In this document: positions 381-44,439 of the stretch, piece after piece
How the letters are laid out: each line of letters begins with the position of its first letter
Numbering within the stretch: position 1 is the stretch's first letter
From: a virus
Length of the DNA: 46,414 nt
IMG/VR virus record: IMGVR_UViG_3300048997_000259
Location: 1-46,414 of that record
Direction: 5' to 3' (one strand)
Program-made: the position numbers and the translations under genes
Notes under the pieces: model-generated
Told to the model about the DNA's origin: nothing
Seen by the model: the letters and a program-made list of their open reading frames with translations, nothing else
The model's database searches: none

Positions 381-671
381 TCAATCGCATGAGCCGGAAT
401 CATCGTGGCACTTGCAGCCTTGCGGAAACAATCGATTGGCTTCTTCTTCGTAAAAATGTTGCATGGTCGCCGCCCTTTCGGTTTTGTGAACGTGCTTCGC
501 TTCGTGCTCCGTCGCGCACTCCCGGCACAGAAATCGGCCGCACTCGCTGCATTCCGCGATGTGAGATGAGCACAGTGGTGTTTCGCATTCGGCACAACTG
601 GTGATGGCCGGGTGCGGACACATGGTAGTTGCGTTGCGGGCGTGAATCCAGCTTTCGGTTGAGCAGGCCAT
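381..671 (-). CDS. Small Cys/His-rich zinc-binding protein
   Basis: 96-aa protein with dense metal ligands: CPHP, CAEC, CSSH, CSEC, CREC and an HEAKHVH stretch near residue 55, resembling a B-box-like double zinc site. The start ATG overlaps the stop of the YqaJ exonuclease gene (TAATG), so it is translationally coupled inside the leftward recombination operon. The function is not recognised. The zinc pattern suggests nucleic-acid or protein binding. Similar Cys-rich small proteins are scattered through the right-hand early region (for example 43220-43390). Confidence 0.75.
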   Translation of the reverse strand: MACSTESWIHARNATTMCPHPAITSCAECETPLCSSHIAECSECGRFLCRECATEHEAKHVHKTERAATMQHFYEEEANRLFPQGCKCHDDSGSCD

Positions 672-1324
672 TAGAACTCCAATCCGCCCGGTTCGGGCAT
701 TGAAAGTTTGTCCACGGTTCCATCCACTTCTTCGAGAAATTCCTCGATCTTGCGCTCGATCTCGCCGATGATGGCGTCATTGCGAAAGAGACGCCGGATG
801 AAAAGCTGCAGGTGTTCTGGTAAGCGCGGATCGTAACTGACGAAGTCACACCACGCGCGTCCGGTGCAGGCCATTTGCGCGAACATCTGCGAGGCGTATT
901 CGGCGGGTAAAGATTGCCCGAGCAGATAGCCGATGTGGGTTGCGGTGTTTGGGCATTTGAATTCGACCAGGCCGTCTTCTCCGACCAGTCCGTCCGGCGA
1001 AGCGCCGAAGCGGGGAATGTGAGAGTGGATGGCGAAGCCGGTCGTGTCTACAGTTGTGTCGCACTTCAGCTCGTAGGTTGCGCGGGCGAAGGGCTCCTGG
1101 TCGGTTCCCCAGAGCATTTCCGGTGATACGTATTGTGGAACCGGAACGCGCGTGAGGGTTTCGATCACCAGCTCCATGCGGTAGTTGCGCCGTGAGGCTG
1201 ATTCGCCCTTTTTGATTTCAGCGAGGATATCGGCGATCCGTGAGGCGGTGACTTTACCGCAGCGCAGCGCCGCCCACTCTTCAGTTCTTTGTTCGCAGTT
1301 GATGAGAATTCCGGGGGCGCTCAT
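671..1324 (-). CDS. YqaJ-like phage exonuclease (lambda exonuclease fold)
   Basis: 217 aa, the usual length for YqaJ/lambda-Exo type recombinases. The N-terminal RTEEW (residues 13-17) and KVTASRI are typical of the family. Metal-site residues fit the PD-(D/E)xK plan: E77 in DQEPFAR, D111 in ASPDGLV, then E121-F-K123. Such enzymes resect dsDNA ends 5'-3' and work with an annealing protein. Here the gene just upstream (1321-2079) overlaps it by ATGA and is the natural partner. Family assignment is firm; partner assignment is inferred from position. Confidence 0.9.
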   Translation of the reverse strand: MSAPGILINCEQRTEEWAALRCGKVTASRIADILAEIKKGESASRRNYRMELVIETLTRVPVPQYVSPEMLWGTDQEPFARATYELKCDTTVDTTGFAIHSHIPRFGASPDGLVGEDGLVEFKCPNTATHIGYLLGQSLPAEYASQMFAQMACTGRAWCDFVSYDPRLPEHLQLFIRRLFRNDAIIGEIERKIEEFLEEVDGTVDKLSMPEPGGLEF

Positions 1325-2079
1325 TGGAGTTCCCGCTTTCTGGCGTCCTTGGCGCGAACGAAAGCATCGAGCGCTGTTCGATCGTTGGCGATTTTGGCTT
1401 CATTCCCGGCGGCTAGATAGCGTTTCTTAAGTTCAGCCAGGTCTCGCGATTTGGTAATTCCGGTGCAGAGCTGCTTCACGTGCTCGATGTGAATGGGTCT
1501 GCACTCGATTCGCGATGCTATGGCGCGTCCGTAAGGGCTGGCACCATCCATCTCTTCTGCCGGTGTCGGAGCGTAGCCAGCCATGACGACAACCCATGCG
1601 AGCATGCTGCGTAGCGCCTTTGCCTGGGCGCGGGTTTGTGCCATCGAGCGCAGTTGGAAAAGTGGTTTGCCGCGCCACTTTTCTTCATCGTCGAGGCATT
1701 CTCCCTGAGCAGCTCCAATGACTTGTCCCGACGAAACCAGAATAGTTTCGGCGTGGCATTCATAGCCTTGAGCGCGTCCGCGTTCGACGTATCGGGTTTC
1801 TCGCGCGGCTGCCGTGATCCCGTAAAAGCGGCCTAGAGTTTGCCAGTCCTCGAACTGAAGATAGGTCTTTCCGTTGATGGTGCATTTGTTGGGCTTGCTC
1901 TCGATCACATCGCGCAGAGCTTGTGCGGCTTTTGCGGCTTCCTGGAGGACGAGTTCAGGAGCGCGTTGTAGTGCGAGTGACTGAGGCTGCAAAATAATGG
2001 ACTCTGCATCTGCCTCAATCGGCTTTCTGGTGAGATGGTGTACTTCGGAGGTTGCAGGCTGATTCGGAACAGATGCCAT
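1321..2079 (-). CDS. Putative single-strand annealing / recombination-mediator protein
   Basis: 252 aa. The N-terminal 75 residues look disordered. The core holds TYLQFEDWQTLGRFYG, then a conserved-looking MAQTRAQAKALRSML and MAGYAPTPAEEM, a pattern I associate with phage proteins encoded beside YqaJ exonucleases and loosely like the TRA-KALR helix of Rad52/ERF annealases. The stop overlaps the exonuclease start (ATGA), giving strict coupling. I infer annealing or loading of ssDNA during recombination; no catalytic motif is present. The C-terminal ~70 residues are helical and charged. The function call is an inference. Confidence 0.6.
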   Translation of the reverse strand: MASVPNQPATSEVHHLTRKPIEADAESIILQPQSLALQRAPELVLQEAAKAAQALRDVIESKPNKCTINGKTYLQFEDWQTLGRFYGITAAARETRYVERGRAQGYECHAETILVSSGQVIGAAQGECLDDEEKWRGKPLFQLRSMAQTRAQAKALRSMLAWVVVMAGYAPTPAEEMDGASPYGRAIASRIECRPIHIEHVKQLCTGITKSRDLAELKKRYLAAGNEAKIANDRTALDAFVRAKDARKRELQ

Positions 2080-5994: not shown

Positions 5995-7404
5995 GTGCAA
6001 TCTCTCGCAGAAAAGTTTCGCGCCTTGCCGGAAGACGAGCGCAAGCGCCGTATCGAGAAACTCTCGGAGGCGGAAGCCGATGCTCTCTTGCATGACTGGG
6101 ACTTCTGGGCGCGTCCCGCGCAGCTCGAACCGCCAGAATTCGCGAGGGGCGAGAAAACAAACTGGCTGGTCAAAGCAGGTCGCGGATTCGGCAAGACCCG
6201 CGTGGGCGCCGAGCAAGTCCGCAAGTGGGCGAAGGATTTTCCAATCGTGAACCTGGTCGGTCCAACCGTGGCTGACGTGCGCGACGTGATGGTGCGCGGC
6301 ATCGGCGCTAATTCTTCCATTATGGAAATCTGCCGACGCGACGAGCGCCCGGAGTATGAGCCTTCGAAGCGCCGGCTCACCTGGCCGAATGGTGCGGTTT
6401 CGCTTTTATTCACTGCCGAAGATCCTGAATCGTTGCGCGGTCCGCAGCACATGAAGGTGTGGGGCGACGAGCTGGCGGCGTGGAAGTATCCCGATGCGAC
6501 CATGGAGCAGATTGAATTCGGCTTGCGGTTGGGGTCATCGCCTCAGGGTGTGTACACCACGACGCCCAAGAATACGAAATTGGTTCGCCGCCTGGTGGAC
6601 GATCCAAATACGATCGTGACTTCCGGCTCGACCTACGACAACAAAGCAAATCTCGCGCCGAAGTTTTTCTCCACTGTCGTAAATAGACACGAAGGAACGC
6701 GGATGGGCCGGCAGGAGTTGATGGGGGAACTTCTGACCGACAATCCGGGCGCATTGTGGACGCTGACCGCGATTGACCTCGACCGTATCGGCTTTCTTCC
6801 CGCTGGTCTCACCCGCATCGTCGTCGGCGTCGATCCTGCAGTGACCTCAAATGAAGAATCGTGCGAGACCGGAATCGTAATCGCCGCGATGGGTCTAAGT
6901 CCAGAAGGCAAAGACGACATCCCGCACTTCTATGTGATCGACGATTTGTCGTTGCTGGGTTCTCCCGACGAATGGGCGCAAAAAGTTGTTGTCGCCTACG
7001 CTGAGCAGAAGGCCGATCGCATAATCGCTGAAGTCAATAACGGCGGCGACCTGGTCGAAGCCATCTTGCGCACCAAACGGCTGGAGTTCGCTTACCAGGC
7101 TGTGCATGCAACAAGAGGCAAGATTCGGCGTGCTGAGCCGATCTCCGCTCTTTACGAGCAGCACCGGGTTCATCATGTCGGAGCATTCCCGCAGCTTGAA
7201 GACCAGATGTGCGATTACGTTCCGGGCAAAACCAAGCAATCGCCGGACCGCATGGACGCGCTGGTGTGGGCTCTCTGGGCATTATCCGAGCCGGAAGAGG
7301 TTTCTGACATTGTGACCCACGAAGAGCCGGTGCAGATCGCGCCTGACCTGGATGAAATTTTAGAAGACGCCAGCAATAACAATCCCACTTGGGGAATGTT
7401 CTAA
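5995..7404 (+). CDS. terL: Terminase large subunit (packaging ATPase/nuclease)
   Basis: 469 aa from GTG 5995. The ATPase has Walker A GRGFGKT (residues 62-68) and Walker B MKVWGDE (about 152-158), followed by YTTTPK, the usual coupling motif. The RNase-H-like nuclease begins with GVDPAV (about residue 279) and continues with IIAEVNNGGD and SPDRMDALVWAL, which supply acidic residues. It powers DNA translocation into proheads and cuts concatemers. Length and motif order are normal for the family. A portal gene follows 3 bases later. Confidence 0.95.
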   Translation: MQSLAEKFRALPEDERKRRIEKLSEAEADALLHDWDFWARPAQLEPPEFARGEKTNWLVKAGRGFGKTRVGAEQVRKWAKDFPIVNLVGPTVADVRDVMVRGIGANSSIMEICRRDERPEYEPSKRRLTWPNGAVSLLFTAEDPESLRGPQHMKVWGDELAAWKYPDATMEQIEFGLRLGSSPQGVYTTTPKNTKLVRRLVDDPNTIVTSGSTYDNKANLAPKFFSTVVNRHEGTRMGRQELMGELLTDNPGALWTLTAIDLDRIGFLPAGLTRIVVGVDPAVTSNEESCETGIVIAAMGLSPEGKDDIPHFYVIDDLSLLGSPDEWAQKVVVAYAEQKADRIIAEVNNGGDLVEAILRTKRLEFAYQAVHATRGKIRRAEPISALYEQHRVHHVGAFPQLEDQMCDYVPGKTKQSPDRMDALVWALWALSEPEEVSDIVTHEEPVQIAPDLDEILEDASNNNPTWGMF

Positions 7405-7407
7405 ACC

Positions 7408-9000
7408 GTGAAACGCCGCACAACTAAAGTTAAAGAATCTCGCCGCACGAACGCGAGCACGCCGCGCTTTTCTGAAGAGCAGGTGCTGTCCGTCTTGATG
7501 TCGATTCCTGAAGTAAAGGAATCGCTCTCGGGTGGCGATGCCATTCTCGCCGCGGAAGACGTTGGCTGGATTTCCTCTCGCGCTGGCGGCGACGGCCTGG
7601 AGCTTCCTCCTCAGCGCCGCGAACGCATGGTGAAAGTTTGCCGCGCATTCTGGCACGGCGATCCGCTGGCGAAGCAGGCAGTACGCTTGTGGACGGATTA
7701 CGCGGTCGGGACCGGAATCACTTTCAATTCGAAAGACACCGGCATCGTCAAGGAACTTACTTCTTTTTGGCGCAACCGCAAAAATAAACGCCTCACCAGT
7801 TCGCGCGGCCAGCAGCGGCTTTCAAAGAAGCTGCTGGTGGATGGCGAGATTTTCTTTGCCGTGTTCGGTGCGGAAGACGAGCAGAAGGTGATTCGTACTC
7901 TTGACCCGCTGCAGGTGAAAGACATCATCTGCGATCCCGGTGACGATGAAGAAGCGTTGTGCTACAAACGCACCGACCGCAGCTCCCCGCCTAAGACCCT
8001 TTATTACAAAGACTGGGTGGCGGATGATGACAAGCTCGCGAACTTAAAAGACGCCGAGGGCAACGCTATCTCCGTCGAAGAGGATGTCGTGGTTTATCAC
8101 GTCCCATTCGACGACATCGGCATGCGCGGCAATAGCTTGCTGTCGTCGTGCATTGGTTGGGCGAATGAGCACCGGAAATTCATGGAAGCGCGGGTTTCGC
8201 TCGTGCGCGCGCTTGCAACCTTTGCCTGGAAGGTGACAGCGAAGGGCGGACAGAAAGTCATCGACAAAGTTCAGCAGGACCTGAATTCCACGCTCTCGAA
8301 AAATGCGGGAAGCCGCGAGCGTAATCCTCCAGCTACAGCCGGTTCCACCTGGGCGCAAAACCAGGGCATCGATATGCAGCCGATGCCGCGCGCGACAGGC
8401 GCGAATGATGCCGGCGAGGACGGACGCAATCTGCGGCTGCAGTTCTTTGCTGGCACCGGAACCTTCCCGCACTACTACGGCGATGGACGAGATGCGAATC
8501 TTGCGACCGCCGAGGCTATGGAACTGCCGATGCTCAAGGAGTTCACCGGCTACCAGGAACTCTGGAAGGACGTGTGGCGCGACATCTTTGCCATCATTCT
8601 CGGCGAGGACATCGACGAAGAGCCGCTGGATGTAACCGTAAATCTGCCGAACATTCTGCAGGACGATCTGAAAAAGCTCGGTGAGTTCCTTACTGGGTTA
8701 CACCAGGTGTTCCCTGAGGTTCAGATCCCGGAGATCCTGCAAATCTGTTTGGTTGCCATGGGCGTCAACAATGTGGATCAGGTGATGCTTTCAGTCGCGG
8801 CGAAGAAAGCTGAGAACGCGACGTTGGCGCAAGTTGTTCCGCCTCACCAGGTCCCTCAGCCGGTACCGGCAGGGAAGGGAACTCCTGTGCCGAACGCTCC
8901 CGGTGCTCTGCCGGTGAAGGAATCCGCGAAGATCGAGGCCGCCAAGGTGAAGGCGCTGAATCGCCTCTCGAAAGTTCTGACCGAGGTGTTTGCCGCGTGA
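7408..9000 (+). CDS. Portal protein
   Basis: 530 aa, GTG start 3 bases after TerL. Features of phage portals: a charged N-terminus, LWTDYAVGTGITF, KKLLVDGEIFFAVFG near residues 130-150, and ITYV-free helical crown region with FFAGTGTFPHYYGD. The C-terminus is proline-rich, then helical. The dodecameric portal forms the DNA channel at the capsid vertex and docks TerL. The call rests on position between TerL and a MuF-like protein together with the DGEIFF-type motif, and is secure. Confidence 0.9.
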   Translation: MKRRTTKVKESRRTNASTPRFSEEQVLSVLMSIPEVKESLSGGDAILAAEDVGWISSRAGGDGLELPPQRRERMVKVCRAFWHGDPLAKQAVRLWTDYAVGTGITFNSKDTGIVKELTSFWRNRKNKRLTSSRGQQRLSKKLLVDGEIFFAVFGAEDEQKVIRTLDPLQVKDIICDPGDDEEALCYKRTDRSSPPKTLYYKDWVADDDKLANLKDAEGNAISVEEDVVVYHVPFDDIGMRGNSLLSSCIGWANEHRKFMEARVSLVRALATFAWKVTAKGGQKVIDKVQQDLNSTLSKNAGSRERNPPATAGSTWAQNQGIDMQPMPRATGANDAGEDGRNLRLQFFAGTGTFPHYYGDGRDANLATAEAMELPMLKEFTGYQELWKDVWRDIFAIILGEDIDEEPLDVTVNLPNILQDDLKKLGEFLTGLHQVFPEVQIPEILQICLVAMGVNNVDQVMLSVAAKKAENATLAQVVPPHQVPQPVPAGKGTPVPNAPGALPVKESAKIEAAKVKALNRLSKVLTEVFAA

Positions 9001-14189: not shown

Positions 14190-15551
14190 ATGAAGATTAA
14201 AAAGAATTTACGTGCGGGCGAGCGCAAATCAATGGCGCGTTTTCGCCAGCATTTCGGGGGGCCGCGCTTGATGGCTGCACTTGCCTATCGTGCGCTGAGC
14301 CTCATTGCGCCGGTCGCTGTGCTGGCCCTTCTTGGGCTGGGTGTAGCGCACTTCGCCGGTAACCACGGGTTGATGATGGCAGCGGTTGGCGGTGGCGTCG
14401 GCACAAAATTTCTCGAAGTAATGGATTTCGAGGAAGCGGTGGCGGCCTCGGCGCAAGACCGCGCCAGTCAGATGGGTAATTTTGAGGAGCGTCTGGCCGG
14501 TTTCATGAAGGGCTTCATGAACTGGAGGCCCTCAAAGCGCCTGGCGTTCCTTGAAGAAGCTGGCGCTGAGACCATCAGTGATTTTCTGGTGCTGTTCTCA
14601 AACGTCATCGACCGGATGCTGTTGCCAAAGTACAAAATGCAAACTCCGGACTATCGCAACTATGTGAAGATCGGGTCCAGTCGTGACTTCCGCAAGTCTC
14701 AAGGAATCGGGACCTGGGGACTGCGCGGTGCTTTTGACTCCCGCACTTTGCGCGGTGAGTACAAAGAGCGGGTGTTGAACGACGGCAAGGTTGAGATTCA
14801 GGTGGTTCCATTCGGCAATCGCTTCTCGATTGGTATGGAGAACTTCATCAACGATGATTTGGGCGCGCTCGCTGGCGTGGCCGATGATTTCGTGCAAGCG
14901 GCGCTGGCCACGGAATTGCGTGAAGGCTCGAAGCTGATCGCTGGGGCTGGCGGACCGAATGCTGCCTTATTCGGTAATGCAGTCGTGCACCCGATCGATG
15001 CCACTGTCATCGATAACACGGACATCCTCGATTACTCACTCGACAATCTGGGAACCGTGATCACGCGGCTTTCGAGCCAAGTGGACGCTGATGGCAATCC
15101 CATTCTGGTTTCGAAGTTCCACGTGGTCTATCCGCCGGCGCTCGAAATTCCTGTACTCAAGTCGCTCAGTCCGCAACAGCTGATCGCGGTGGGTTTTGGG
15201 AATTCGGCTGCTGTCACTACGTCCGAGAACGTGATCGGAAAGAACTTCTCGATCACACCTCACAAAAACGCTTGGCTGCCGATCCTCGACAAATCAGGGA
15301 ACGCAGACAAGACCTGGTACGTCTTTGCCGATCCTACGGCGGACGGACCGGCGGTGCAGCTGAACTTCCTGCGCGGGCGCGAGACTCCGGAAGTGCTGAT
15401 GAAGGCTTCAAACAAAGTGGCCTTGGGCGGCGCTGCGGTTTCGGCGATGGAAGGCGACATCGAGACTGACAAAGTCGTGTTCCGTGGTCGTCACATCATG
15501 GGCGGTGCGGCGGTCGATCCCCGCTTCGCTTATGTGAACGTCGGCGCGTAA
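14190..15551 (+). CDS. Major capsid protein
   Basis: 453 aa from ATG 14190 with CAGGAG upstream. From about residue 70 it reads as an HK97-fold coat: MDFEEAVAASAQDRAS, LPKYKMQTPDYRNYVKIG, FGNRFSIGMENFINDD, VVYPPALEIPVLKSL, then a beta-rich end RGRHIMGGAAVDPRFAYVNV. The first ~65 residues are odd: basic, then a hydrophobic segment (LIAPVAVLALLGLGVAHFAG). This may be a cleavable N-terminal arm (delta-like) removed by the maturation protease. Placement after protease and cement genes is standard. Confidence 0.85.
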   Translation: MKIKKNLRAGERKSMARFRQHFGGPRLMAALAYRALSLIAPVAVLALLGLGVAHFAGNHGLMMAAVGGGVGTKFLEVMDFEEAVAASAQDRASQMGNFEERLAGFMKGFMNWRPSKRLAFLEEAGAETISDFLVLFSNVIDRMLLPKYKMQTPDYRNYVKIGSSRDFRKSQGIGTWGLRGAFDSRTLRGEYKERVLNDGKVEIQVVPFGNRFSIGMENFINDDLGALAGVADDFVQAALATELREGSKLIAGAGGPNAALFGNAVVHPIDATVIDNTDILDYSLDNLGTVITRLSSQVDADGNPILVSKFHVVYPPALEIPVLKSLSPQQLIAVGFGNSAAVTTSENVIGKNFSITPHKNAWLPILDKSGNADKTWYVFADPTADGPAVQLNFLRGRETPEVLMKASNKVALGGAAVSAMEGDIETDKVVFRGRHIMGGAAVDPRFAYVNVGA

Positions 15552-20485: not shown

Positions 20486-23281
20486 ATGGCGATTGATATC
20501 GGCGATGCGGTACTCACCTTTTTAGGTGATACCACTCAACTCGACGCTGCCTTTGACAAGGTAGGCACAGAAGCGCCCGCGAAACTTGCGCCCGCCGACG
20601 CCGCGATCGGCGCGCTGGGAACGAAGTTTCAGACAACCGGCGCCCAAGGCACCCAAGCCGCGGGAACTCTGGCGGATGCTTGGAAACTGTTGCCTCCGGT
20701 CATCGCGCAAACCGATGCCGAGCTGCAGAACATGGCCTTCGCGTTGCGCAACGTGTCTGTTGCGGCTGAGGGTGCAGGAGAGCAGACTGCGTTAGCTGCG
20801 GTAAGGGGCAGCGAGAAAATCCGCATCCTGGATGAGGCCATTGGGATTAAGTTGCCGCGCGGTGTCACGCGGTTCATCTCTGAATTGGTTCCTCTTGGCG
20901 GAATCATGGATGCCGCTTTTGCTGCCAGCGTGATCTTCATTGTGGTTGAGGCGCTCGCAAAGGGCATAGAGAAGTTGGTTGAGTGGTCGCAGGAAGCTCA
21001 CAAGATCGCCCTGGCACAGGAGGAGTTTAAGACTTCCATTCTCACCAGCTTTAATTCGCTCGACGACAAACTGCTACAGTCCGGCGCTAGGTTAGATGAG
21101 CTGCGCGGCGATCACATGGCGGCGTTGCGCAAAGAACTGGAGCTGATCGATCATCAGACGCTTCAGGATTTAGTGAAGGAGTTCGACGTTCTCGAAAAGG
21201 CTGCGGACGCGATCTTTGAGCAGCTGAAGACCAGTTGGGCTTCCTTTGACGCCGGATCGAAAGGCGCACAGAACGCGATTAAGGATTTCAAGGCGCAATA
21301 TGATTTGTTGCTCGCTGAAGGCAAGGACGAAAAGGCCAACGATCTCCTACTGGGCACGCTTGACTCCGCAAAGAAAGTTCTCGAAACGATGGAGCAGGCC
21401 CACAAAGAGGCCGAGATAACTTTCAAATCTATCGGCCCTCATGGGCAGGAGATTGAACGTAAACAAGGTGGCGGACCTAGCGAAAAAGAGCTGAAGGCGC
21501 AAGAGGATTTAGTCGAGATACTCAACGCACAGGTTGAGGCGCGGAAAAAGATTAACCAGGAAGCCGACAACGAAAAAGCCATCAAGAACACCGAAGAGGC
21601 GAACAAGGTTGCGACGGAGCAGGAGCGGTTGCTCAAGGCGCAAGTAGACGCGCAAAAGCGAGCAGACGAGCAGGAAGACAAGGACGAAGACGATCGACGC
21701 AACAAGTTCATTGCCTCTTTTCAAGAGCAGGAAAAAGAAAAGATTGCGGCCACCAAGCAGGGATCAGAAGAGCGCATCCGGGTTATCGACGCCGCGATCA
21801 AAGAAGAACAGGCCCACGGTTTCCAGGATGAGGCGTATTACAAATCTCTTCAGGTGCAGCGCGTCCAGGCAGTCCAGGCGCGAATCGCACAGGAACAAAA
21901 GGCGCAACTCGACGCCGACAAGCAACAGCTGACCACCGCCGAGCAACAGGCAAAGCGCGAAGTCGAAGTCGAGAAAGAATCGGCCAACGAGCAGGAAAAG
22001 GCGATTCAGGACTTGGGCAAGGCGCGAGTTTTCTCGCAATCAGAAACCTCGCGCCGGATGATCGCCGCCTATAACGACGAGAGAACTAAAACTCTCGCAG
22101 TTCTAAACCATCTTCTCAGTGACGAAAAAGCGCTGATGGAGAAGGCCGCGAAGCAACTGGCCGATGCCAAGTTGAATCCCGGCGTGACGCCCGAGCAAAT
22201 TCAGCAGGCGGAAGCGCTCTTAACTCAACTCAAAAATGCGATCGCGAATACCGAAACCCAGATTGGAAAAGTAAAGAGCGATACCAATTCGAGAATGCTG
22301 GCGCTCGATAAAAGTTATTACGGGCAAGCACTCGCGCTCGCCGTCGCATTCGGGAATCAGGACCTGGCGGTTCGGCTGAAAGAAAATCATGCGGCCCTGC
22401 TCTCGGCTCAGGCCAATCTCGCGGACGCTAAAGCGCGCGGCGCGGATACCCACGCGATCGAGCAGCAAATTAAATCGCTGCAGAAGTTAGAAAAAGAACT
22501 GACCAAAGAAGCGCGGGCCGAAAATAAGGGCCACGCGCAACTGATGGCTGAGTTCGGCCAGACTTCAAGGGCCATCGGTGCGTACGAAGCGGAGTTGGAT
22601 GCGAGCGGGAAGAAGACTGCCGCGTGGGGAGCGGGAATCGGCACCGTGCTTTCGGCTGTGGCCGAAGCTTACGCCCAAGGGGGAGTTTCGGCTGAGCAGG
22701 CTTTCGCCAAGGTCGCAGCGGCTGAAATTAGCGCCATCGCCCAGGTTGCGGAAAAAGAAGGCACCAAACAACTCGCTCTCGCGCTCGGATCGTACCCGGA
22801 CTTTGCGGGCATGGCTCACCACTTCGCCGCTGCCACTCTGTGGTTCACGTTAGGTGGCGCTCTCTCGGCTGGTGCTGGTGCATTGTCCGGCGGCGGGAGC
22901 GGTTCGTCGGGATCGTCTTCCAGTGCTTCAAGGGGCACTGCCGCGCCAGCTCCAGGCAGCCCAGCTGCCACCGCTGGAGGCGTGCCAGTTTCTACCGTGA
23001 ACGTTCCTCACCTGGCGAGCGGCGGACTGATCGCGCGCGACACGATGGTGGTTGTACATGGCGGTGAAGCGGTCATTCCTTTTTCGAATCGTGAAGCCAT
23101 GCGAAGCTTTAGCAGCGCGATCTCCGCGATGATGCAAAATGGCGCGCAACCCATAGAAATTCACATCAAGCATGAAGCCGACGTTCCCGGTTTTGCTCGC
23201 ATTCTCAATCACAGCGTGAAAAGTGGGCGCGTCAGACTCACTTCCTCGAACACCCTTTCCCCGCGCGGACGGCGCAGCTAA
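20486..23281 (+). CDS. Tail tape measure protein
   Basis: 931 aa, the longest gene. Long charged coiled-coil stretches (about 180-690) with Glu/Lys/Gln-rich repeats, a hydrophobic segment near residues 130-165 (GGIMDAAFAASVIFIVVEAL), and a Gly/Ser/Ala-rich C-terminal region ending with LASGGLIARDTMVVVHGGEA, a typical tape-measure end. Length sets tail length; at roughly 1.5 angstrom per residue this predicts a tail of about 140 nm. Preceded by the chaperones. Confidence 0.95.
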   Translation: MAIDIGDAVLTFLGDTTQLDAAFDKVGTEAPAKLAPADAAIGALGTKFQTTGAQGTQAAGTLADAWKLLPPVIAQTDAELQNMAFALRNVSVAAEGAGEQTALAAVRGSEKIRILDEAIGIKLPRGVTRFISELVPLGGIMDAAFAASVIFIVVEALAKGIEKLVEWSQEAHKIALAQEEFKTSILTSFNSLDDKLLQSGARLDELRGDHMAALRKELELIDHQTLQDLVKEFDVLEKAADAIFEQLKTSWASFDAGSKGAQNAIKDFKAQYDLLLAEGKDEKANDLLLGTLDSAKKVLETMEQAHKEAEITFKSIGPHGQEIERKQGGGPSEKELKAQEDLVEILNAQVEARKKINQEADNEKAIKNTEEANKVATEQERLLKAQVDAQKRADEQEDKDEDDRRNKFIASFQEQEKEKIAATKQGSEERIRVIDAAIKEEQAHGFQDEAYYKSLQVQRVQAVQARIAQEQKAQLDADKQQLTTAEQQAKREVEVEKESANEQEKAIQDLGKARVFSQSETSRRMIAAYNDERTKTLAVLNHLLSDEKALMEKAAKQLADAKLNPGVTPEQIQQAEALLTQLKNAIANTETQIGKVKSDTNSRMLALDKSYYGQALALAVAFGNQDLAVRLKENHAALLSAQANLADAKARGADTHAIEQQIKSLQKLEKELTKEARAENKGHAQLMAEFGQTSRAIGAYEAELDASGKKTAAWGAGIGTVLSAVAEAYAQGGVSAEQAFAKVAAAEISAIAQVAEKEGTKQLALALGSYPDFAGMAHHFAAATLWFTLGGALSAGAGALSGGGSGSSGSSSSASRGTAAPAPGSPAATAGGVPVSTVNVPHLASGGLIARDTMVVVHGGEAVIPFSNREAMRSFSSAISAMMQNGAQPIEIHIKHEADVPGFARILNHSVKSGRVRLTSSNTLSPRGRRS

Positions 23282-27335: not shown

Positions 27336-29010
27336 GAAAATCTTAACTTTTGCGATTCTCGTCTTCGCTTCCGCTTGCGCCTTCGGGGTGGACTGCAACA
27401 CGGCGGGCTACGCTTGCATGAACCTCGACAGCCAGATCAAAGGCTCACGCCTGCCGAGCTGGGGTGTGGACTCCGGATCGTCGAACGCTTACGCCATTAC
27501 CACGGTCGCGCCTCTCGGCCCAGCACTGAAGACCGGGTCGGTGTTCATGTTCAAGGCCACCCATGCGAATACCAGCGCGTCAACGCTTGTCGTGGATGGC
27601 GGATCGACAATTGCGATCAAAAAGAATGTTTCCTCGGCGCTGACTGGTGGCGAGATTGCGCTGAATGGCGTCACAGAAGTTGTTTACGATGGCACGAACT
27701 TTCAGTGCATGAGCTGCGGAAGCAGCACGGGAACAGTCACTAGCATTGCCACGACTTCTCCGATCACAGGTGGCACGATCACCACGACAGGAACAATTTC
27801 CTGTCCAACTTGTGCAATCGGCCCCGGAAGCTCAAGCGCAAACCATCTGGCGAAGTTTTCAGGCACTGATGGACTCACCCTTGCCGATGGGGGAGCGATA
27901 CCAACGGGAACGGTTACCAGCGTTGCCGAAACCGCACCCAGTGGACTTCTGTCGGTATCCGGCAGCCCGATCACAACTTCTGGAACCTTCGCTTGGAGCT
28001 GGGCTGGAACATCTGGAGGCATCTCATATTTCTCCAGCACTTCAGCCTTGGCTTCGTCCGCGCTGCTTACTAATCATGCGCTCGTTGTCGGCGGTGGAAC
28101 TGGCGCAGCGCCTTCAGTAGTGAGCAGCTTAGGTACGACAACTACAGTGCTCCATGGCAACGCTTCTGCAAATCCATCATTCGGAGCGGTGAGCCTGACC
28201 GCAGATGTCAGCGGAATTCTTCCTGTCGCCAATGGTGGAAACGGAACGGCTACACCAACGCTTTCGCCAGGTGCCAACGTGACCCTTGCTGGAACCTGGC
28301 CGAATTACACCATTAATGCAGCAACGGGTTCAGGTGGAAGTGGCACATCGACAGCACGTCCGAACACTCGCCGCTGGGCTTATGGAGCGCAAACAGGGGA
28401 CAATAATTCTGGCAATTGGTCTGGCACGGAATCCTCAAACGTTGGCTTTAGTGGATCTCTCGGCAGTGCCGCGACAGGGACTGCCACTTGTGGTCCCACT
28501 AGAACAGGGAGCACCGCAGCAACAATAGGAAGCGTGGCCGGTGAAGGTAATAGTGCCGCCCCGATTCGCAACTGGAATTACGGCAAAAATCCGATGTTTC
28601 AGGCGCAAGTCGCGCTGAACAATACAAGCAACGTTCGCCAATGGCTTGTTTTCACCGATCAGACCATTGCCACCGTTGGCGCGTCGGCAACTCCCGCAGG
28701 AAATTCCACCGGATTTCGCTATGACACAGGAGCAGGTGATACCCACTGGCAATGCGGGAGTTCAGCATCAGGTTCTTGGACGTTTGTCGATACCGGAGTC
28801 ACGCCGGATACTTCTTGCCATACCTTTGAAGTGTTGGTCACGTCGGGAACGAACGCAGTCTGCAAAATTGACGGCGGCTCGGCGACGACCGTTTCATCAA
28901 ACCTCCCAGCGAACAGCACAATGCTGGGCTGGCAAGACGAGATTACAGCGCTGGCTGCTTCAATAGTCTCGATTAAATGGTCGTATCACTACTGGGAACA
29001 AGATCCGTAG
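27316..29010 (+). CDS. Large Gly/Ser/Thr-rich tail fibre protein with signal-like N-terminus
   Basis: 564 aa. I choose ATG 27316 (MRFTQLKKILTFAILVFASA), which gives a signal peptide ending ACA-FG. The body (residues 30-350) is low-complexity beta sequence with recurrent GTVTSxA and LVVGGGTGAAPS-like segments (for example TGTVTSIATTSP and TGTVTSVAETAP), typical of phage fibres. The last ~170 residues look like a lectin-type tip (NWSGTESSNVGFSG, DTGAGDTHWQCGSS). A Sec signal on a tail fibre is unusual. It converges with the desaturase-like gene, overlapping 38 bases. Confidence 0.7.
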   Translation: MRFTQLKKILTFAILVFASACAFGVDCNTAGYACMNLDSQIKGSRLPSWGVDSGSSNAYAITTVAPLGPALKTGSVFMFKATHANTSASTLVVDGGSTIAIKKNVSSALTGGEIALNGVTEVVYDGTNFQCMSCGSSTGTVTSIATTSPITGGTITTTGTISCPTCAIGPGSSSANHLAKFSGTDGLTLADGGAIPTGTVTSVAETAPSGLLSVSGSPITTSGTFAWSWAGTSGGISYFSSTSALASSALLTNHALVVGGGTGAAPSVVSSLGTTTTVLHGNASANPSFGAVSLTADVSGILPVANGGNGTATPTLSPGANVTLAGTWPNYTINAATGSGGSGTSTARPNTRRWAYGAQTGDNNSGNWSGTESSNVGFSGSLGSAATGTATCGPTRTGSTAATIGSVAGEGNSAAPIRNWNYGKNPMFQAQVALNNTSNVRQWLVFTDQTIATVGASATPAGNSTGFRYDTGAGDTHWQCGSSASGSWTFVDTGVTPDTSCHTFEVLVTSGTNAVCKIDGGSATTVSSNLPANSTMLGWQDEITALAASIVSIKWSYHYWEQDP

Positions 29011-29788
29011 CGCGTGGCAGTTTGGCTGGTTTAATCATTCGCGCCCATTCTAAGAACGGACCTAGCAAAGCTTCGCTGACCGTGGTGATCTTTTTATCAG
29101 AAAGCCCGCAAGTAATCGATCTCTTGTCGGGAGCGAAGTAAGTTCCGAAGATCACGTCCCACATCGGAAAGAATGCTGCGAAGTTTTTATTGAAGTGCTC
29201 CGGTGAATTGGAATGGTGAATGCGGTGAGTTCGCGGGTTTGCCAAAATTCGATTCAGCGGGCCGAGGCTCAGATTTGAATTCAGGTGGATGAAGTAGCCC
29301 CAAGCGTAAGGCAATGCCGACAACAGAATCGCTGCCGCGACGGGAGGCCGGAACAGTATCAGCATCGGTGCGTCAATGAAAATCACTTCGAGCGGCTTTT
29401 CCAGCCAGTGATGGCGGGTGGCTGTCGTTACATTCATGTGTTCGTCGCTGTGATGCAGCATGTGTTCCGCCCACAGCCATCGGGAGTGATGCTGAAAGCG
29501 GTGAAGCCAGTAATAAAAGAAGTCGTGCACGGCAAGCCAGAGCGGGGCTGTGGCCAGCAAGCCGAGAGATGGGAAATTCATCAGCCCGTAAATGTGCAAG
29601 CGATTCAGCAGCGCATAGACTCCCAGAACTAAGGGAACGGCTAGAAGTGCCTCGGCCACAAAATAGAACACCGTGCAGGTGGCATTGAAGAGCAGATTCT
29701 TGGCGGTGTTCGATTCATCGGCTGGTGACATTCCCTCGATGGTGAAACCGACGAAGTAGGCGACAAGAGTTTGGATCAGTGTGCTCAC
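28973..29788 (-). CDS. Membrane fatty acid hydroxylase / sterol desaturase family enzyme
   Basis: 271 aa, GTG start at 29788. The eight-histidine di-iron pattern is complete: HDFFYYWLHRFQHH (H88, H96, H100, H101), HMLHH (H109, H112, H113), and THRIHH (H188, H191, H192). Hydrophobic spans lie around residues 36-60, 72-90 and 145-170. The family hydroxylates or desaturates lipid acyl chains or sterol-like substrates at the membrane, using O2. Here it is read against the late genes, in an operon with two tiny membrane peptides and a secreted protein: probable lysogenic-conversion cargo. The substrate is unknown. Confidence 0.85.
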   Translation of the reverse strand: MSTLIQTLVAYFVGFTIEGMSPADESNTAKNLLFNATCTVFYFVAEALLAVPLVLGVYALLNRLHIYGLMNFPSLGLLATAPLWLAVHDFFYYWLHRFQHHSRWLWAEHMLHHSDEHMNVTTATRHHWLEKPLEVIFIDAPMLILFRPPVAAAILLSALPYAWGYFIHLNSNLSLGPLNRILANPRTHRIHHSNSPEHFNKNFAAFFPMWDVIFGTYFAPDKRSITCGLSDKKITTVSEALLGPFLEWARMIKPAKLPRATDLVPSSDTTI

Positions 29789-35012: not shown

Positions 35013-35174
35013 TTGCCTCTTGACACTGCACTGCTCACGGTGCATCATCCGCAACTCTGTCGGTTTACCGACCGACGCATGAGTTGTGTCACACCTATCG
35101 GGTCGCGATGTTTTGATGGGTTGCCCTGGCTTCCCCGCAGGAGGCAATTCATTGAAATATCCGGAGAGCCCGCA

Positions 35175-36206
35175 ATGGAGCTTATGCCTACAGCTGCGCT
35201 CACGCAGTTGCCCTTCAAGTCCGCATGTGAAGCCTGGTTAGAATCCCGCCGCCCTTATATCTCGGCCAAGACTCATCACGAATACCAACTGAACATCAAC
35301 ACTCTTTCCGCATTTTTCGGGGAGCTGCGTTTGCAGGAGATTGATGGCGATCTGCTCAGAAAGTATCAGCGCATGCGCCAGTTGAAGTGCGGGCCGTTCG
35401 CCATCAATCACGAATGCGGATTGATCTGCCAGATCAGAAAAAAGCGGATGGGGATGCCGATCGAAGATTATCAGCCGCTGCCATTGCCCAAGGAAAAAGT
35501 TGGGCGCGTGCTCAGTGACGAAGAGCGCGAACGATTGCTGCGGGTTGCGGGTTCGAATCCAAATTGGGAAGCCGCATATTTGTTCGCCATGATCTCGGTC
35601 AATACCGGCGCCGGTCCGAAAGAAGTCGCCAGCCTGCGATTCAAAGACGTGGACTGGCAGCGTGAGGAAATTCACATTCCTCCGCACGGCGCGAAGAACG
35701 TTACCCGTATTCGGCCCATCCCGCTCAACTCGGAGGCCATGAAGGGAATCAAGGCGGCTGTTCAGAGAGCGAAGAGACTTGGCTCGACCGAACCGCAGCA
35801 CCACATTTTCCCCTTTCGCAATATTCATCTTTCATGTTTCGATCCCGCCAAGCACCAGACGACATTCAAGACAGCTTGGAAAAAACTCACGAAAGCCGCT
35901 CTGCTCGGGGATTTACAGATGTACGATCTTCGCCGCACCGTAGCGACAGACATGCTGGAAAATCCTGAAATCAGTGATGAGACGATCGAAGAAATTCTCG
36001 GCCACACGCCCGGTTCGCGCACCAAAAAGCTGTACTCCTACATTCGCGTCGAAGCCCGGCGCAAAGCGGTGAATGCACTTTCACCGAAAAAACCAGCCAA
36101 GCAGCGCAAAAATTCTCCCAAGAAAAAGCCCTCGATTTCCACAAACCGCGATGAGCTGGTTTCGCAGCTCTCGACTCTTCTGGCGAAGCTCCTAAAAGGC
36201 GCGTGA
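35175..36206 (+). CDS. int: Tyrosine-family integrase
   Basis: 343 aa from ATG 35175 with CGGAGAG upstream; the frame is open back to 35013 but lacks a better start. An N-terminal core-binding domain (YISAKTHHEYQLNINTLSAF) precedes the catalytic domain. Box I reads NTGAGPKEVASL, with Gly where Arg is usual. Box II is YDLRRT, with Tyr for the first His. GHTPGSRTKKLYSY carries the nucleophile tyrosine. The Lys-rich C-terminus may bind DNA. The attP candidate lies 370 bases downstream. The motif changes suggest a divergent subfamily and not necessarily loss of activity. Confidence 0.85.
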   Translation: MELMPTAALTQLPFKSACEAWLESRRPYISAKTHHEYQLNINTLSAFFGELRLQEIDGDLLRKYQRMRQLKCGPFAINHECGLICQIRKKRMGMPIEDYQPLPLPKEKVGRVLSDEERERLLRVAGSNPNWEAAYLFAMISVNTGAGPKEVASLRFKDVDWQREEIHIPPHGAKNVTRIRPIPLNSEAMKGIKAAVQRAKRLGSTEPQHHIFPFRNIHLSCFDPAKHQTTFKTAWKKLTKAALLGDLQMYDLRRTVATDMLENPEISDETIEEILGHTPGSRTKKLYSYIRVEARRKAVNALSPKKPAKQRKNSPKKKPSISTNRDELVSQLSTLLAKLLKGA

Positions 36207-39036: not shown

Positions 39037-40785
39037 ATGACAAAACTTCCGTTTCCAGAGCGCGTGCTGCATCAGCACATCGCCACGCTGGGCAAGACCG
39101 GCGCCGGAAAATCTTCCGCCATGCGCGTCATTGCCGAGCACCTACTCGACAAGAATCGGCGGGTCGCCATCATCGATCCGAAAGGCGACTGGTGGGGCTT
39201 GAAATCTTCTGCCGACGGCAAGAGCGCCGGTTATCCGGTCATCACCTTTGGCAATTTCAAAGAGGAACGCGCGACTGATGTTCCGATCAATGAGCAATCA
39301 GGCAAGCACGTTGCCGAATTGATTGCCACCGGGAATCGTCCGTGCGTCCTCGGATTTCGCGGCTGGATGCCTGGGCAGCTCACGCGCTTCTGGCTTGATT
39401 TCGCGCCGACTCTTTTCAACGCCAACGAAGGCGAACTGTACGTCATCATCGACGAGGTTCACAACTTCGCGCCCAAGGGCAAGATCATGGACCCGCAAGC
39501 AGGGAAGTGCTTGCACTGGACCAATCGCATCATGAGCGAAGGCCGCGGGCTGGGCCTGACGTTCTTCATTGCTTCGCAGCGCCCGCAGAAGGTCCACAAC
39601 GACACGCTGGACAATTGCGAAACCCTGATCGCGATGCGAGTCACCCATCCGCGATCGCGCGACGCCGCCGAAGAATGGATCAACGCGAAAGGCGATCCCA
39701 AGTTCGAGAAGGAAGTTCTCGGCTCGCTCGCGCAACTGAAACGCGGTGAGGCTTGGGTGTGGTCACCGGAAAACGGATTCGGTCCGGAGCGCGTGCAGTT
39801 CCCGATGTTTCAGACCTTCGATTCTTTCGCGCCGCCGCAAGTTCAAAAGAAAGTCAGTCAGGCGGGCTGGGCGGAAGTGGATCTAGACCAGGTCAAACAG
39901 AAACTTGCGACCGTGATCGCAGAGGCAAAGGCGAATGACCCGAAAGAGCTGAAGGCAGAAGTCTTCCGACTGAGGCAGGAGCTGGCCAAGAAGCCGGCGT
40001 CGGTCACATCGGCGCCGATTGTTCAGGAGAAAGAAAAGATCGTCGAAGTGTCGGTGTTCACCGACAACGACAAGCAATCTCTCGCTGCACTGCAAAGAGA
40101 GTTGTCGGAGATTACGGGCCTCGCCCATGATGTTGCTTCAGTCCAGGCCATCATTCAAAGGGCGATTGACACAGTTGCAAAGCAGCGATTCCTTACTGCG
40201 CCCCCGCGATTCACAAAGCCGATTCCAGCGCCGCAGAATATACGCCACCAGCCAGGGCGAGTTGAATCACACGTCGAATCGAACGGTGACCTCTCTCGCC
40301 CGCAACTCAAGTTGATCGAAGCCCTGGGCGAAGCGGAAGCCATTGGACGCAAAGAAATCTCGCGCTCCTGGCTGGCCTTCATCGCTGGCGTTTCGCCGCT
40401 ATCGTCCGGCTTTGAAAAAAACGTGAGCACTTTAAGTGCGAAGGGAATGCTGCGTTATCCCGCGTCCGGTTGCGTTGCGCTCACTGACGTTGGCCGCACA
40501 CTCGTGCCGCCGATCTCGACGCCGCTGACTACCGAGTCATTGCTCGATCGCGTGTGTCGCTTGTTATCCGGGCCGCAAGAAACATTGCTGCGCGTTCTGC
40601 ATCGTGAATACCCGAACTCTTTGACCAGGTCGGAACTCGCGCGCCACGCCAATGTGAGCGAGTTATCGAGCGGATTCGAAAAGAACGTCTCGACGCTTTC
40701 CGGTCGCGAGCTGGTGGAGTATCCCGGAAAGGGTGAAGTAGTTTGCGCCGATTGGTTGTTCATCGGTGACGAGGTGGCTGCATGA
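39037..40785 (+). CDS. HerA/FtsK-like DNA translocase ATPase
   Basis: 582 aa. Walker A GKTGAGKSS (residues 19-27), a DPKGDWWG signature, Walker B VIIDEVHNF (about 134-142) and the sensor region FIASQRPQKVHND (about 175-187) mark a HerA-type (VirB4/FtsK superfamily) hexameric ATPase. The C-terminal third has two winged-helix-like repeats, each with the phrase SSGFEKNVSTLS (near 455 and 545). Such ATPases move dsDNA. Its presence before a methyltransferase and a Rep gene suggests a role in replication or segregation rather than packaging. Coupled to the next gene. Confidence 0.85.
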   Translation: MTKLPFPERVLHQHIATLGKTGAGKSSAMRVIAEHLLDKNRRVAIIDPKGDWWGLKSSADGKSAGYPVITFGNFKEERATDVPINEQSGKHVAELIATGNRPCVLGFRGWMPGQLTRFWLDFAPTLFNANEGELYVIIDEVHNFAPKGKIMDPQAGKCLHWTNRIMSEGRGLGLTFFIASQRPQKVHNDTLDNCETLIAMRVTHPRSRDAAEEWINAKGDPKFEKEVLGSLAQLKRGEAWVWSPENGFGPERVQFPMFQTFDSFAPPQVQKKVSQAGWAEVDLDQVKQKLATVIAEAKANDPKELKAEVFRLRQELAKKPASVTSAPIVQEKEKIVEVSVFTDNDKQSLAALQRELSEITGLAHDVASVQAIIQRAIDTVAKQRFLTAPPRFTKPIPAPQNIRHQPGRVESHVESNGDLSRPQLKLIEALGEAEAIGRKEISRSWLAFIAGVSPLSSGFEKNVSTLSAKGMLRYPASGCVALTDVGRTLVPPISTPLTTESLLDRVCRLLSGPQETLLRVLHREYPNSLTRSELARHANVSELSSGFEKNVSTLSGRELVEYPGKGEVVCADWLFIGDEVAA

Positions 40786-41980: not shown

Positions 41981-42016
41981 GCAGAGTGCGGGGCTTTTTA
42001 GCGCCCCGCACTCTGC
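41981..42016 (+). terminator. Perfect 14-bp hairpin between methylase and Rep genes
   Basis: GCAGAGTGCGGGGC (41981-41994) and GCCCCGCACTCTGC (42003-42016) enclose TTTTTAGC; GGTTTT follows. It may terminate the upstream operon. Because it sits about 110 bases before a rolling-circle Rep gene it could equally be a structural part of an origin. Confidence 0.7.
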
Positions 42017-42128
42017 GGTTTTAAGCGAAGCACGGCGGGTCTTTGCGGGTTCGCACGTGCCTCGCTTGAGGTGTGTCTTGTCGATTGTACTCGGGGTTTT
42101 GGGGTTGCTTTTGATTTTGAGGTCTTTA

Positions 42129-42135
42129 CTTGATA
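42129..42135 (+). other. Candidate rolling-circle nick site CTTGATA
   Basis: CTTGATA is the conserved nick core of pC194/pUB110-type double-strand origins, cut after CTTG in those plasmids. Here it overlaps the TTG start of the Rep gene, in the context CTTTACTTGATACC. Seven bases is a weak signal, but the matching Rep family and the nearby hairpin add weight. Confidence 0.4.
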
Positions 42136-43209
42136 CCAGTGCATAAATCGACAGATTTCAACTCGGCATCGTCGTCCTCCGCTCAACCATTTTTGAATAA
42201 GGCGGTTTCACTTCTAGATCGTTACGTCTTGCAGGGGAAATTAGTGGAAGCTCTTGAAAACACGGAGTACCACAAGCATTTGGCGGTGAAGGTTTACAAC
42301 TGCCACAAACGCTTTCGAAAGAAGCGTTGCGACCAGAATCACGACTGGGCTGTGGTTGACGAGAAAAACAAGCCTTGCTCGCTGCGAATTTGCCCGCACT
42401 GTGCATCTCGTCGTTCGCGAATTGTGGCGGCGCGGACGCAGAAGCTTCTTTTTGGGAAAACTGGTTTGCGTTATGCCGTGTTGGCGGAGCGCAATTCGGA
42501 AAATTTGCAAGCGGGTGTGCGCTCGCTATGGAGAGCCTGGACAAGTCTTCGTCGTTCGGTGTGCTGGAAGGCGAAGGTGAAGGGATGCATTGTGGCGCTA
42601 GAGGTCACCTATAACCCGAAGCGAAAGACTTGGCATCCCCATTTGAACGTGCTGATGGAGGGGGAATATTTTCCGTTTGAGGAGTTGAACAAGGCGTGGA
42701 TTAAGGCGACAGAGGGGAACGGGCGGACCAGCCGGATTCAAGCTGCAGACCATGAAACCGTTTTCGAGTTGCTGAAGTACACGCTGAAAGTGGCCGCGCG
42801 CGACAAAGACACCGGGGAATTTGAGTTGATCTTCGATGAGCCGGAAGCTATTGACGAATTTTTGTCAGCCGTCCATGGGAGCCGCCTGGTGCGGAGTTAT
42901 GGCACCTTGCACGGTTTAAAACTCGAAGATGAAGACGAGGAAAAAGCCCGCGAAAAATGCCCGGATTGTGGTTCGACTTGTGTGATCGATTTGGGCGGGG
43001 TGACCCACAATCAGCTGAGTTTCGATTTTGAAAAACAAACTTTCCGCGTGGTGCGTGCCCCTACGGAAGCCGATGTCGGCTTGCATCTCGTCCGAGATAA
43101 CCACTCGCGCCGGGTTTCAACTAATCCCGAATCGATTGCGTTGGCAGTGGAAGCGCGGCGCGCGATGAGGTCTTACGAAAAAGCGGTCGCACTGAAATTC
43201 GCAGCTTGA
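42130..43209 (+). CDS. Plasmid-type rolling-circle replication initiator (Rep_1-like HUH)
   Basis: 359 aa from TTG 42130 with a GAGG upstream. Near residue 81 is the Rep_1 zinc segment SLRICPHCASRRSR. The metal-binding HUH motif is WHPHLNVL (about 167-174). The catalytic tyrosine lies in LLKYTLKVA (about 213-221). A C-terminal CPDCGSTC (about 277) adds a second finger. The enzyme nicks one strand at a double-strand origin, staying 5'-linked. In a tailed phage it implies rolling-circle or sigma replication started by a plasmid-like initiator. Motifs are in standard order. Confidence 0.85.
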   Translation: MIPVHKSTDFNSASSSSAQPFLNKAVSLLDRYVLQGKLVEALENTEYHKHLAVKVYNCHKRFRKKRCDQNHDWAVVDEKNKPCSLRICPHCASRRSRIVAARTQKLLFGKTGLRYAVLAERNSENLQAGVRSLWRAWTSLRRSVCWKAKVKGCIVALEVTYNPKRKTWHPHLNVLMEGEYFPFEELNKAWIKATEGNGRTSRIQAADHETVFELLKYTLKVAARDKDTGEFELIFDEPEAIDEFLSAVHGSRLVRSYGTLHGLKLEDEDEEKAREKCPDCGSTCVIDLGGVTHNQLSFDFEKQTFRVVRAPTEADVGLHLVRDNHSRRVSTNPESIALAVEARRAMRSYEKAVALKFAA

Positions 43210-43455: not shown

Positions 43456-43815
43456 ATGGCAACAGCACCAGCAACACCCATCAGCAGCAAGCGGCCAGAG
43501 ATGGTCGAAGTGAAAGCACCGAAACAGGTCCAGTTCGAAAAGCAGGGTCAGACGCTAAACGGCGTACTGGTTTCGATCGAGCCCACAACCGTGAAAGACA
43601 AACAGGCGATCGAGTATCTGATCGTGGACGAGCGGGGAGATCGATCGACCTTTCTCGGCACGGCTGACCTCAACAAGAAAATTCATTCCGGCCACATTGG
43701 TCACATGCTCGAAATCCGCTATGAGACCAATGACAGCTCTTTCCAGAAAGAAGGACAGAGCGCGATGAAAATCTTCAAAGTCCTGGCCTCGAAGGAGAAG
43801 GTCGCTGGATTTTGA
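43456..43815 (+). CDS. Abundant small protein, possible ssDNA-binding OB-fold
   Basis: 119 aa with AAAAAGGAG upstream. After a flexible N-terminus the body is beta-rich with PKQVQFEKQGQTLNGVLVSI, YLIVDERGDRSTFLGTADL and HMLEIRYETNDSSFQKEG, which reads as a five-strand barrel. A basic/aromatic mix and location after Rep hint at a single-strand DNA-binding role, needed in rolling-circle replication. The fold and role are inference; the gene itself is clear. Confidence 0.65.
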   Translation: MATAPATPISSKRPEMVEVKAPKQVQFEKQGQTLNGVLVSIEPTTVKDKQAIEYLIVDERGDRSTFLGTADLNKKIHSGHIGHMLEIRYETNDSSFQKEGQSAMKIFKVLASKEKVAGF

Positions 43816-43888: not shown

Positions 43889-44176
43889 ATGGAATTCTTG
43901 ACGACTCACACTTGGTACGACTGCAAATGTCATCGCCAGTTCTGTCAGTTTTGCGACGGCGGCCTCGCCGCTTGCACCGTCTGCCAAGGATTTGAAGGTT
44001 CGCTTCCGACCGACTGTCCTGGCGTTGCTATGACGCAGGTGCAGCAAGACCTGGTGTACGAAGGGAATCTCGATTTCCGTGTTGGACGAGGTTGGGTCAC
44101 CCCGGACGGAAACGGGCGAAGCATGGGAGATGTGGCGATCATCGCCGAGAATATGCGTCACGAGGCGCACACGTGA
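43889..44176 (+). CDS. Conserved Cys-rich phage protein
   Basis: 95 aa from ATG 43889. The signature CKCHRQFCQFCDGG, then CTVCQGFEGSLPTDCPG, with EGSLxTDCPG, matches a small zinc-binding protein widespread in phages and never assigned a role. The C-terminus is beta-rich. Coupled by GTG overlap to the next gene. Confidence 0.75.
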   Translation: MEFLTTHTWYDCKCHRQFCQFCDGGLAACTVCQGFEGSLPTDCPGVAMTQVQQDLVYEGNLDFRVGRGWVTPDGNGRSMGDVAIIAENMRHEAHT

Positions 44177-44439
44177 GCTACATTCTCGATCTCCGCTACA
44201 GCTTCGAGTTTTGCCTGTGCGGACACGGTGCGAAGTTTCATTGCGATTGGAAAAAATCTGCGGATGAACTTTGCGATAAACCCATTTGCCAGAAACACGC
44301 GAAAGAAGTTGGGCCAGATAAGCACCTCTGCCCATTCCATCAGCTTCAGTACCAAAGCTGGAAGCGCAAGCACCCGGAGAAAGTTGGAGCGGTTGAAGTG
44401 GGAGTGCAGGAAAGTTTGTTCGATGGAGCGCAAGTGTAA
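44173..44439 (+). CDS. Cys/His-rich hypothetical protein
   Basis: 88 aa from GTG 44173. CLCGHG, CDWKKSADELCD, CQKHAK and CPFH give six cysteines with histidines, consistent with two zinc sites. The C-terminus is Val/Glu-rich and ends VQESLFDGAQV, which could be a protein-contact tail (LF motif), for example with a sliding clamp. This last point is speculative. Confidence 0.65.
   Translation: MSYILDLRYSFEFCLCGHGAKFHCDWKKSADELCDKPICQKHAKEVGPDKHLCPFHQLQYQSWKRKHPEKVGAVEVGVQESLFDGAQV

Follow-up and report, generated by a model that had tools for sequence, protein, structure and literature searches.

Here we find that a Rep_1 protein of plasmid type is the likely initiator of replication in a tailed and probably temperate phage, whose genome would then be copied as a rolling circle. 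We place the probability of this reading at roughly 0.75, with nicking, the production of single-stranded DNA (ssDNA) and the essentiality of the protein all inferred. The window, by which we mean the whole 46,414-nucleotide stretch analysed (IMG/VR virus record IMGVR_UViG_3300048997_000259), and its relatives support the reading on points that can be shown by sequence: the Rep_1 family membership and catalytic motifs of the protein, a conserved block with a nick motif, the order of rep and an SSB-like gene, the recurrence of rep with unrelated virions, and the lack of any other recognisable initiator.

The rep gene (42130..43209, + strand) encodes a Rep_1 (pC194/pUB110-type) HUH initiator, identified by its Pfam match, its conserved motifs and a model with an HUH-like core. 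Specifically, residues 79-272 of the product match Rep_1 (PF01446.23) with an E-value of 4.4e-14 and a score of 53 bits; because the curated cut-off for the family is 33.2 bits, this is not a chance resemblance. The same cut-off was passed by the nine relatives tested, while a PF01446 search of 14 control genomes returned no match in any of them. The protein carries zinc segment cysteines at C58, C83, C88 and C91, the sequence HPHLN at residues 169-173 (HPH at 169-171) and KYxxK at 216-220, and alignment with plasmid Reps retains C83, C88 and C91, the HPH and E213-xx-K216-Y217-xx-K220. Within the plasmid alignment P170-H171, E213, Y217 and K220 are invariant, as is H169 within the phage alignment, and E213, four residues before Y217, is invariant in phage and plasmid Reps alike. 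The catalytic motifs are furthermore conserved in the nine other phage contigs aligned. There is one catalytic tyrosine in the window Rep, with a glutamate at -4, and the two-tyrosine criterion of P2-type proteins is not met. The initial annotation had noted a zinc segment, an HPHLNVL motif and a KYTLK tyrosine in Rep_1 order, and this held in both the PF01446 match and the motif alignment.

Structural evidence is supportive only. The check proposed at the outset, a structure prediction that could have refuted the HUH fold, did not do so: HUH Reps aligned best to the modelled core (residues 112-266), with geminivirus Rep (Z 6.7), AAV Rep (Z 6.1) and pMV158 RepB (Z 5.4) the nearest structures. 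The model is of moderate quality (mean pLDDT 58) and all Z values lie below 8; Foldseek alone gave no match below E 0.001 for this model or for that of the OB-fold protein described below, and searches of PHROGs, NCBIfam and PDB sequences with Rep returned nothing. An IS91-type transposase identity was considered and rejected, having only a weak zinc-domain match (E 0.042) against the far stronger match to Rep_1. As for the start of the gene, the codon at 42130, TTG in the window, is TAG in three relatives and TTC in one, while the GTG at 42139 is kept in all; rep therefore probably begins at GTG 42139, and TTG 42130 could serve as a start in some members only.

The genome around rep is that of a tailed phage (Caudoviricetes), with terminase, portal, capsid and tail genes in one genome. 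The terminase large subunit (5995..7404, +; phrog_979, E 3e-28) is up to 49% identical to terminases of phage records and is followed by the portal protein (7408..9000, +; phrog_10963, E 2e-43), the major head/protease protein (14190..15551, +; phrog_133, E 4e-29, and phrog_4523, E 3e-26) and the tape measure protein (20486..23281, +; phrog_15478, E 1e-4); a connector gene was also recognised. The description of the phage as a siphophage is only likely: its tape measure, portal, terminase and capsid genes can be identified, the type of its tail remaining unproven. A tyrosine integrase (35013..36206, +; PF00589, E 4e-18; phrog_1, E 2e-37) points to a temperate lifestyle. Just upstream of the terminase, a separate 201-residue tyrosine recombinase without the usual N-terminal domain (5018-5623, +) has 53-56% identical copies in the contigs G010 and G011, and might be a multimer resolvase. 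A match to fatty acid hydroxylase (PF04116, E 4.3e-29) probably comes from an ORF at 28973-29788 (-) that has HHxxHH-type histidine motifs; a gene of this kind is unusual cargo for a phage.

The window ends in an exact 127-bp repeat, with an endonuclease VII-like gene at the ends, supporting a circular genome. Since repeats of the same length occur in two relatives and this one resembles an assembly k-mer overlap, the most likely form of the genome is a closed circle of about 46,287 bp.

No other initiator could be recognised. A Pfam scan of the 59 window ORFs detected no DnaA, DnaB, DnaC, primase, polymerase, D5-like protein or other known initiator, and a scan of 53 ORFs of G017 and G018, mostly non-structural, likewise found no DnaA, DnaB, DnaC, primase, polymerase or D5-like protein. 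The proposal that Rep is the best candidate initiator is thus supported, and the separate initiator that would have refuted it was not found among those 59 ORFs as far as known families go. Many window proteins match no family, so an unknown initiator is not excluded. The initial annotation's further statement that no DnaA/DnaG/helicase set or polymerase is visible held in part: DnaA, a DnaB-type helicase, primase and polymerase are not found, but "no helicase" was too strong given a HerA/FtsK-type P-loop ATPase at 39037..40785 (+; PF01935, E 8.8e-11; phrog_2666, E 1.6e-19), which could be a helicase or a translocase. An ATPase of the same family lies upstream of rep in G018, and one of the same PHROG lies beside rep in the Acidobacteriota genome G491. 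The best PHROG of the window ATPase, phrog_2666, is labelled terminase large subunit; the window has another clear terminase, and the label may be wrong for this protein.

Rep recurs well beyond the window, among phages with several unrelated virions. Neither the window Rep nor that of G010 matched any of 50,697 phage records, plasmids gave only matches of 23-30% identity, viral contigs yielded no relative of Rep or of the portal in single-sequence searches, and a mixed plasmid/phage alignment held no stretch conserved enough to serve as a search query. The family was found in IMG/VR by a degenerate codon pattern for WHPHLNV, which matched 11 contigs; nine of these carry a Rep with 38-63% identity to that of the window, and one more from a profile scan makes ten relatives. 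Tailed-phage genes were found on G012, G017, G018 and G022, with which G010, G011, G013 and G014 have head genes in common, such that eight of the ten further Rep contigs carry tailed-phage head genes; the other two, G015 and G016, are short fragments. These phages fall into at least four unrelated capsid/terminase sets: that of the window, that of G010-G012 and G022 (portal phrog_156), that of G013, G014 and G018 (portal phrog_21), and that of G017 (terminase phrog_9, portal phrog_12). Conversely, G006 has the whole virion block in common with the window at 27-60% identity, and no Rep_1 was seen on that contig, which may be incomplete. Because the same Rep occurs with unrelated virions and a virion homologous to that of the window is seen without Rep_1, we infer that replication and virion modules are exchanged independently. 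Integrases related to that of the window are found in G014 and G018.

A second line of evidence is a putative double-strand origin overlapping the start of rep, the block TTTTGAnTTCTTTACTnGATACCAGTGnATAAnTCGACAGATC at 42114..42158 (+), recognised by its conservation at the DNA level. Across ten distinct sequences the major base has a frequency of 0.88-0.95 over -20 to +19 of the GTG, against 0.42-0.5 in the flanks, and some 40 bp are conserved as DNA in all 11 Rep contigs (window and ten relatives), unlike the flanking DNA. The block occurs once in the window, where none is expected by chance, and each of its seven exact copies in IMG/VR is on a rep-carrying contig. Moreover, Thr5 and Asp6, both encoded within the block, have the same codons in 10/10 sequences, while only three of 70 other invariant Rep residues keep identical codons, and it is this that leads us to infer, from sequence alone, that the constraint here acts on the DNA. 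Within the block, at 42129..42135 (+), lies CTTGATA, reported as the Rep_1-origin nick site (PMC10378824), with a predicted cut at CTTG/ATA, and the block as a whole resembles the pC194 origin, TTCTTTCTTATCTTGATA / TTCTTTCTTATCTTGATAATAAGGG (PMC7072734). The heptamer varies in four of the 11 phage contigs (CTAGATA in G010, G015 and G017; GTTCATA in G011). Chance alone would give an expected 2.7 copies of CTTGATA in the window, and the case for an origin therefore rests on the conservation of the block. A related block, TTTACTGGATACCACCGATTAAGTCAACA, with the variant heptamer CTGGATA, is found in the closed 3.8-kb element of G491, about 116 bp upstream of where its rep ORF begins. We consider it likely that 42114-42158 is the double-strand origin; this too is an inference from sequence, and nicking has not been shown.

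The GC skew of the window gave no simple origin signal. A stem-loop directly upstream of the block was set aside as a part of the origin, since it is clear in G015-G018, G011 and G022 but weak or missing in the window and in G010, G012 and G014; separately, hairpins upstream of the block in several relatives differ in sequence and have similar GAA-type loops. A C5 methylase gene lies near rep in the window, and between the two is a perfect 14-bp inverted repeat (41981..42016, no strand) that is terminator-like; it is not counted as part of the origin, because a hairpin lies closer to the block in several relatives and is missing from others.

The next conserved gene after rep (43456..43815, +) encodes an SSB-like OB-fold protein, so named from its conservation and model, with homologues of 51-76% identity in nine other contigs; in ten contigs an SSB-like gene accompanies rep even where virion modules have been swapped. 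Modelled with a pLDDT of 84, the window protein shows five strands in OB order, the helix lying between strands 3 and 4, and can be aligned to OB folds, the PRD1 SSB P12 (Z 6.3) among them, although Z values are modest and the protein itself has no match to PF00436 in Pfam. In G014 its slot is occupied by a genuine SSB, which matches PF00436 at E 4.3e-40 and whose last residues are DEDIPF. That swap is the best evidence that the OB-fold protein binds ssDNA and that Rep makes it, both of which are inferred, without binding or ssDNA data. Further downstream, a small Cys/His-rich protein (44092..44439, +) ends in the sliding-clamp-motif-like QESLF; it has homologues in nine other contigs, the rep-less G006 among them, and most of these end in QxxLF after a linker of variable length. 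In the phage alignment, Q295 and D299 of Rep itself are invariant within the hexamer Q[LIV]x[FLMI]D[FL], which approaches the consensus of the sliding-clamp motif, Q-aliphatic-x-[L/M]-x-[F/L] (PMC11139829), and fits it strictly in five of ten sequences. Any link of this hexamer to the sliding clamp remains a hypothesis drawn from the letters, and the hexamer may be structural.

Taken together, a rolling-circle scheme can be proposed, in which nicking, strand, termination mode, ssDNA, host enzymes, packaging substrate and host are all inferred. Rep would bind the 42114-42158 block and Tyr217 would cut the + strand at CTTG/ATA, at about 42132/42133; host polymerase III would then extend the 3' end, with unwinding by a host UvrD/PcrA-type helicase or possibly the phage HerA-like ATPase, and the SSB-like protein, from the gene shortly after rep, would coat the displaced + strand. 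The RepA of pC194 has E210 and Y214, an arrangement that predicts termination after one round and not re-initiation; by analogy, Glu213, four residues before Tyr217, would bring termination after one genome length as opposed to the two-tyrosine re-initiation of phiX174 and P2. The resulting ssDNA circle would be made double-stranded by host enzymes. Multimers packaged by the terminase may in turn be built by a YqaJ/RecE-type exonuclease (671..1324, -; PF09588, E 3.3e-29; phrog_149) and a probable ERF-type single-strand annealing protein (1321..2079, -). The latter is similar to proteins of G010 and G012, and its G012 counterpart matches PF04404 ERF (E 2.6e-9); the window protein itself has no Pfam match.

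There is no experimental evidence for this scheme, and it is possible that rep serves prophage or plasmid maintenance only. Under that alternative, Rep would keep the prophage as a plasmid or act briefly after excision, with lytic replication started from a theta origin that depends on the host, or by a phage initiator that has escaped recognition. Rep_1 proteins do normally maintain small plasmids, pC194-type termination yields one copy per initiation, and several window genes have no family. Nevertheless, we regard this as unlikely: the integrase of the window, with a related one in G014 and G018, fits integrated lysogeny and not plasmid maintenance, no partition gene or second initiator is recognised, and rep is retained with the SSB-like gene in ten contigs despite swapped virion modules. 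Still less probable is that rep is a hitchhiker, captured from a plasmid or small phage and without part in phage replication. The closest Reps in the Acidobacteriota genomes sampled do sit on small elements (a 3.8-kb circle with an ATPase in G491, a 4-kb contig in G021), and stray rep genes occur in phages elsewhere, as in Listeria phage LIS04; however, conservation extends to the catalytic residues, the origin block and the partner gene among contigs whose Reps are 38-63% identical to that of the window, implying a module under selection, and nothing else recognisable replaces Rep.

A further alternative concerns the origin only and may hold alongside the main reading, namely that the block serves rep as a promoter, an operator or a signal for translation and is not a nick site. 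The block overlaps the rep start codon, a TTGA hexamer lies upstream, and the nick heptamer is varied in the four contigs named above. Against this, the block resembles the pC194 origin TTCTTTCTTATCTTGATA, it reaches into codons 2-6 with synonymous sites frozen, and the related G491 block sits away from the rep start. We find an expression signal alone improbable, and the two roles may coexist. Returning to the preferred reading of Rep as initiator, the comparative evidence, in which Rep, block and SSB-like gene recur across unrelated virions, is stronger than the structural evidence. It also modifies the earlier suggestion of a chimeric phage-plasmid replication mode, as what emerges is a conserved replication module of a tailed-phage group and not a one-off chimera. 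Nothing shows the phage living as a plasmid; the genome has an integrase, and none of the window ORFs was recognised as a partition gene. A bolder reading, which we consider less likely than not, is that tailed phages with unrelated virions in one host group swap a hitherto unrecognised module, comprising a Rep_1 with its origin inside its own gene start, a dedicated OB-fold SSB in place of one of host type, and QxSxDF (Rep) and QxxLF (small zinc protein) motifs recruiting the host replisome, with replication via unit-length ssDNA circles.

The host is likely to be a member of the Acidobacteriota, an inference without proof, made because the closest Reps among the Acidobacteriota genomes searched are those of G021 (on a 4-kb contig) and G491 (on a closed circle), both small elements from one order. 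The G491 element, contig 277, is a closed 3.84-kb circle with a 127-bp end repeat, encoding Rep, an FtsK/Zot-type ATPase and a hydrophobic protein, and it may be an inovirus-like or plasmid element. If the main reading is true, it would represent a new route by which plasmid replicons and tailed phages exchange replication systems, and a compact origin/initiator pair for phages of the Acidobacteriota, which are abundant and little cultured, with possible use as a genetic vector.

Rep_1 has been described as a plasmid family (PMC5714925), and no paper on Rep_1 replication of tailed phages was found in the open-licence literature searched, whose coverage is incomplete. When the phage collection was queried with two plasmid Rep_1 proteins, matches were confined to inoviruses, two further records of small viruses and a single large Listeria phage. 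The last of these, LIS04, resembles the window in having a Rep_1-like gene ("protein Rep") in a tailed-phage record; it differs in that its 181-kb genome has rep beside nucleotide-metabolism and unknown genes and is not matched by the window Rep at E 1e-5. Rolling-circle replication in tailed phages is known from P2-type gpA; the gpA proteins of P2/186 and phiX174 are HUH rolling-circle phage initiators, and P2 is a tailed dsDNA phage. These proteins have two catalytic tyrosines and belong to other families, whereas the window Rep has one tyrosine with a glutamate at -4 and belongs to Rep_1. Closer in kind are small inovirus- or plasmid-like elements, Streptococcus suis pISU2812 and that of G491, in which a Rep of the same family lies beside a Zot/FtsK-type ATPase; the G491 element has in common with the window phage its Rep clade and a related origin block, yet elements of this type are about 4-6 kb and, unlike the window, have no tailed-phage virion genes in the stretches read. 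With Rep_1 plasmids of the pC194/pUB110 type the window shares PF01446, the zinc cysteines, HPH, ExxxYxxK and a CTTGATA upstream of or at rep, at 24-29% identity to the plasmid Reps aligned. In contrast to those plasmids, the window-type Rep is found in tailed-phage genomes of roughly 38-46 kb, has its own OB-fold SSB-like partner, and bears QxSxDF and CPDC motifs in its C-terminal part that are absent from the aligned plasmid Reps. Rolling-circle initiation by Rep_1 is known; what appears to be new is its use as a conserved and exchangeable tailed-phage module, with an SSB-like partner and an origin inside the start of rep.
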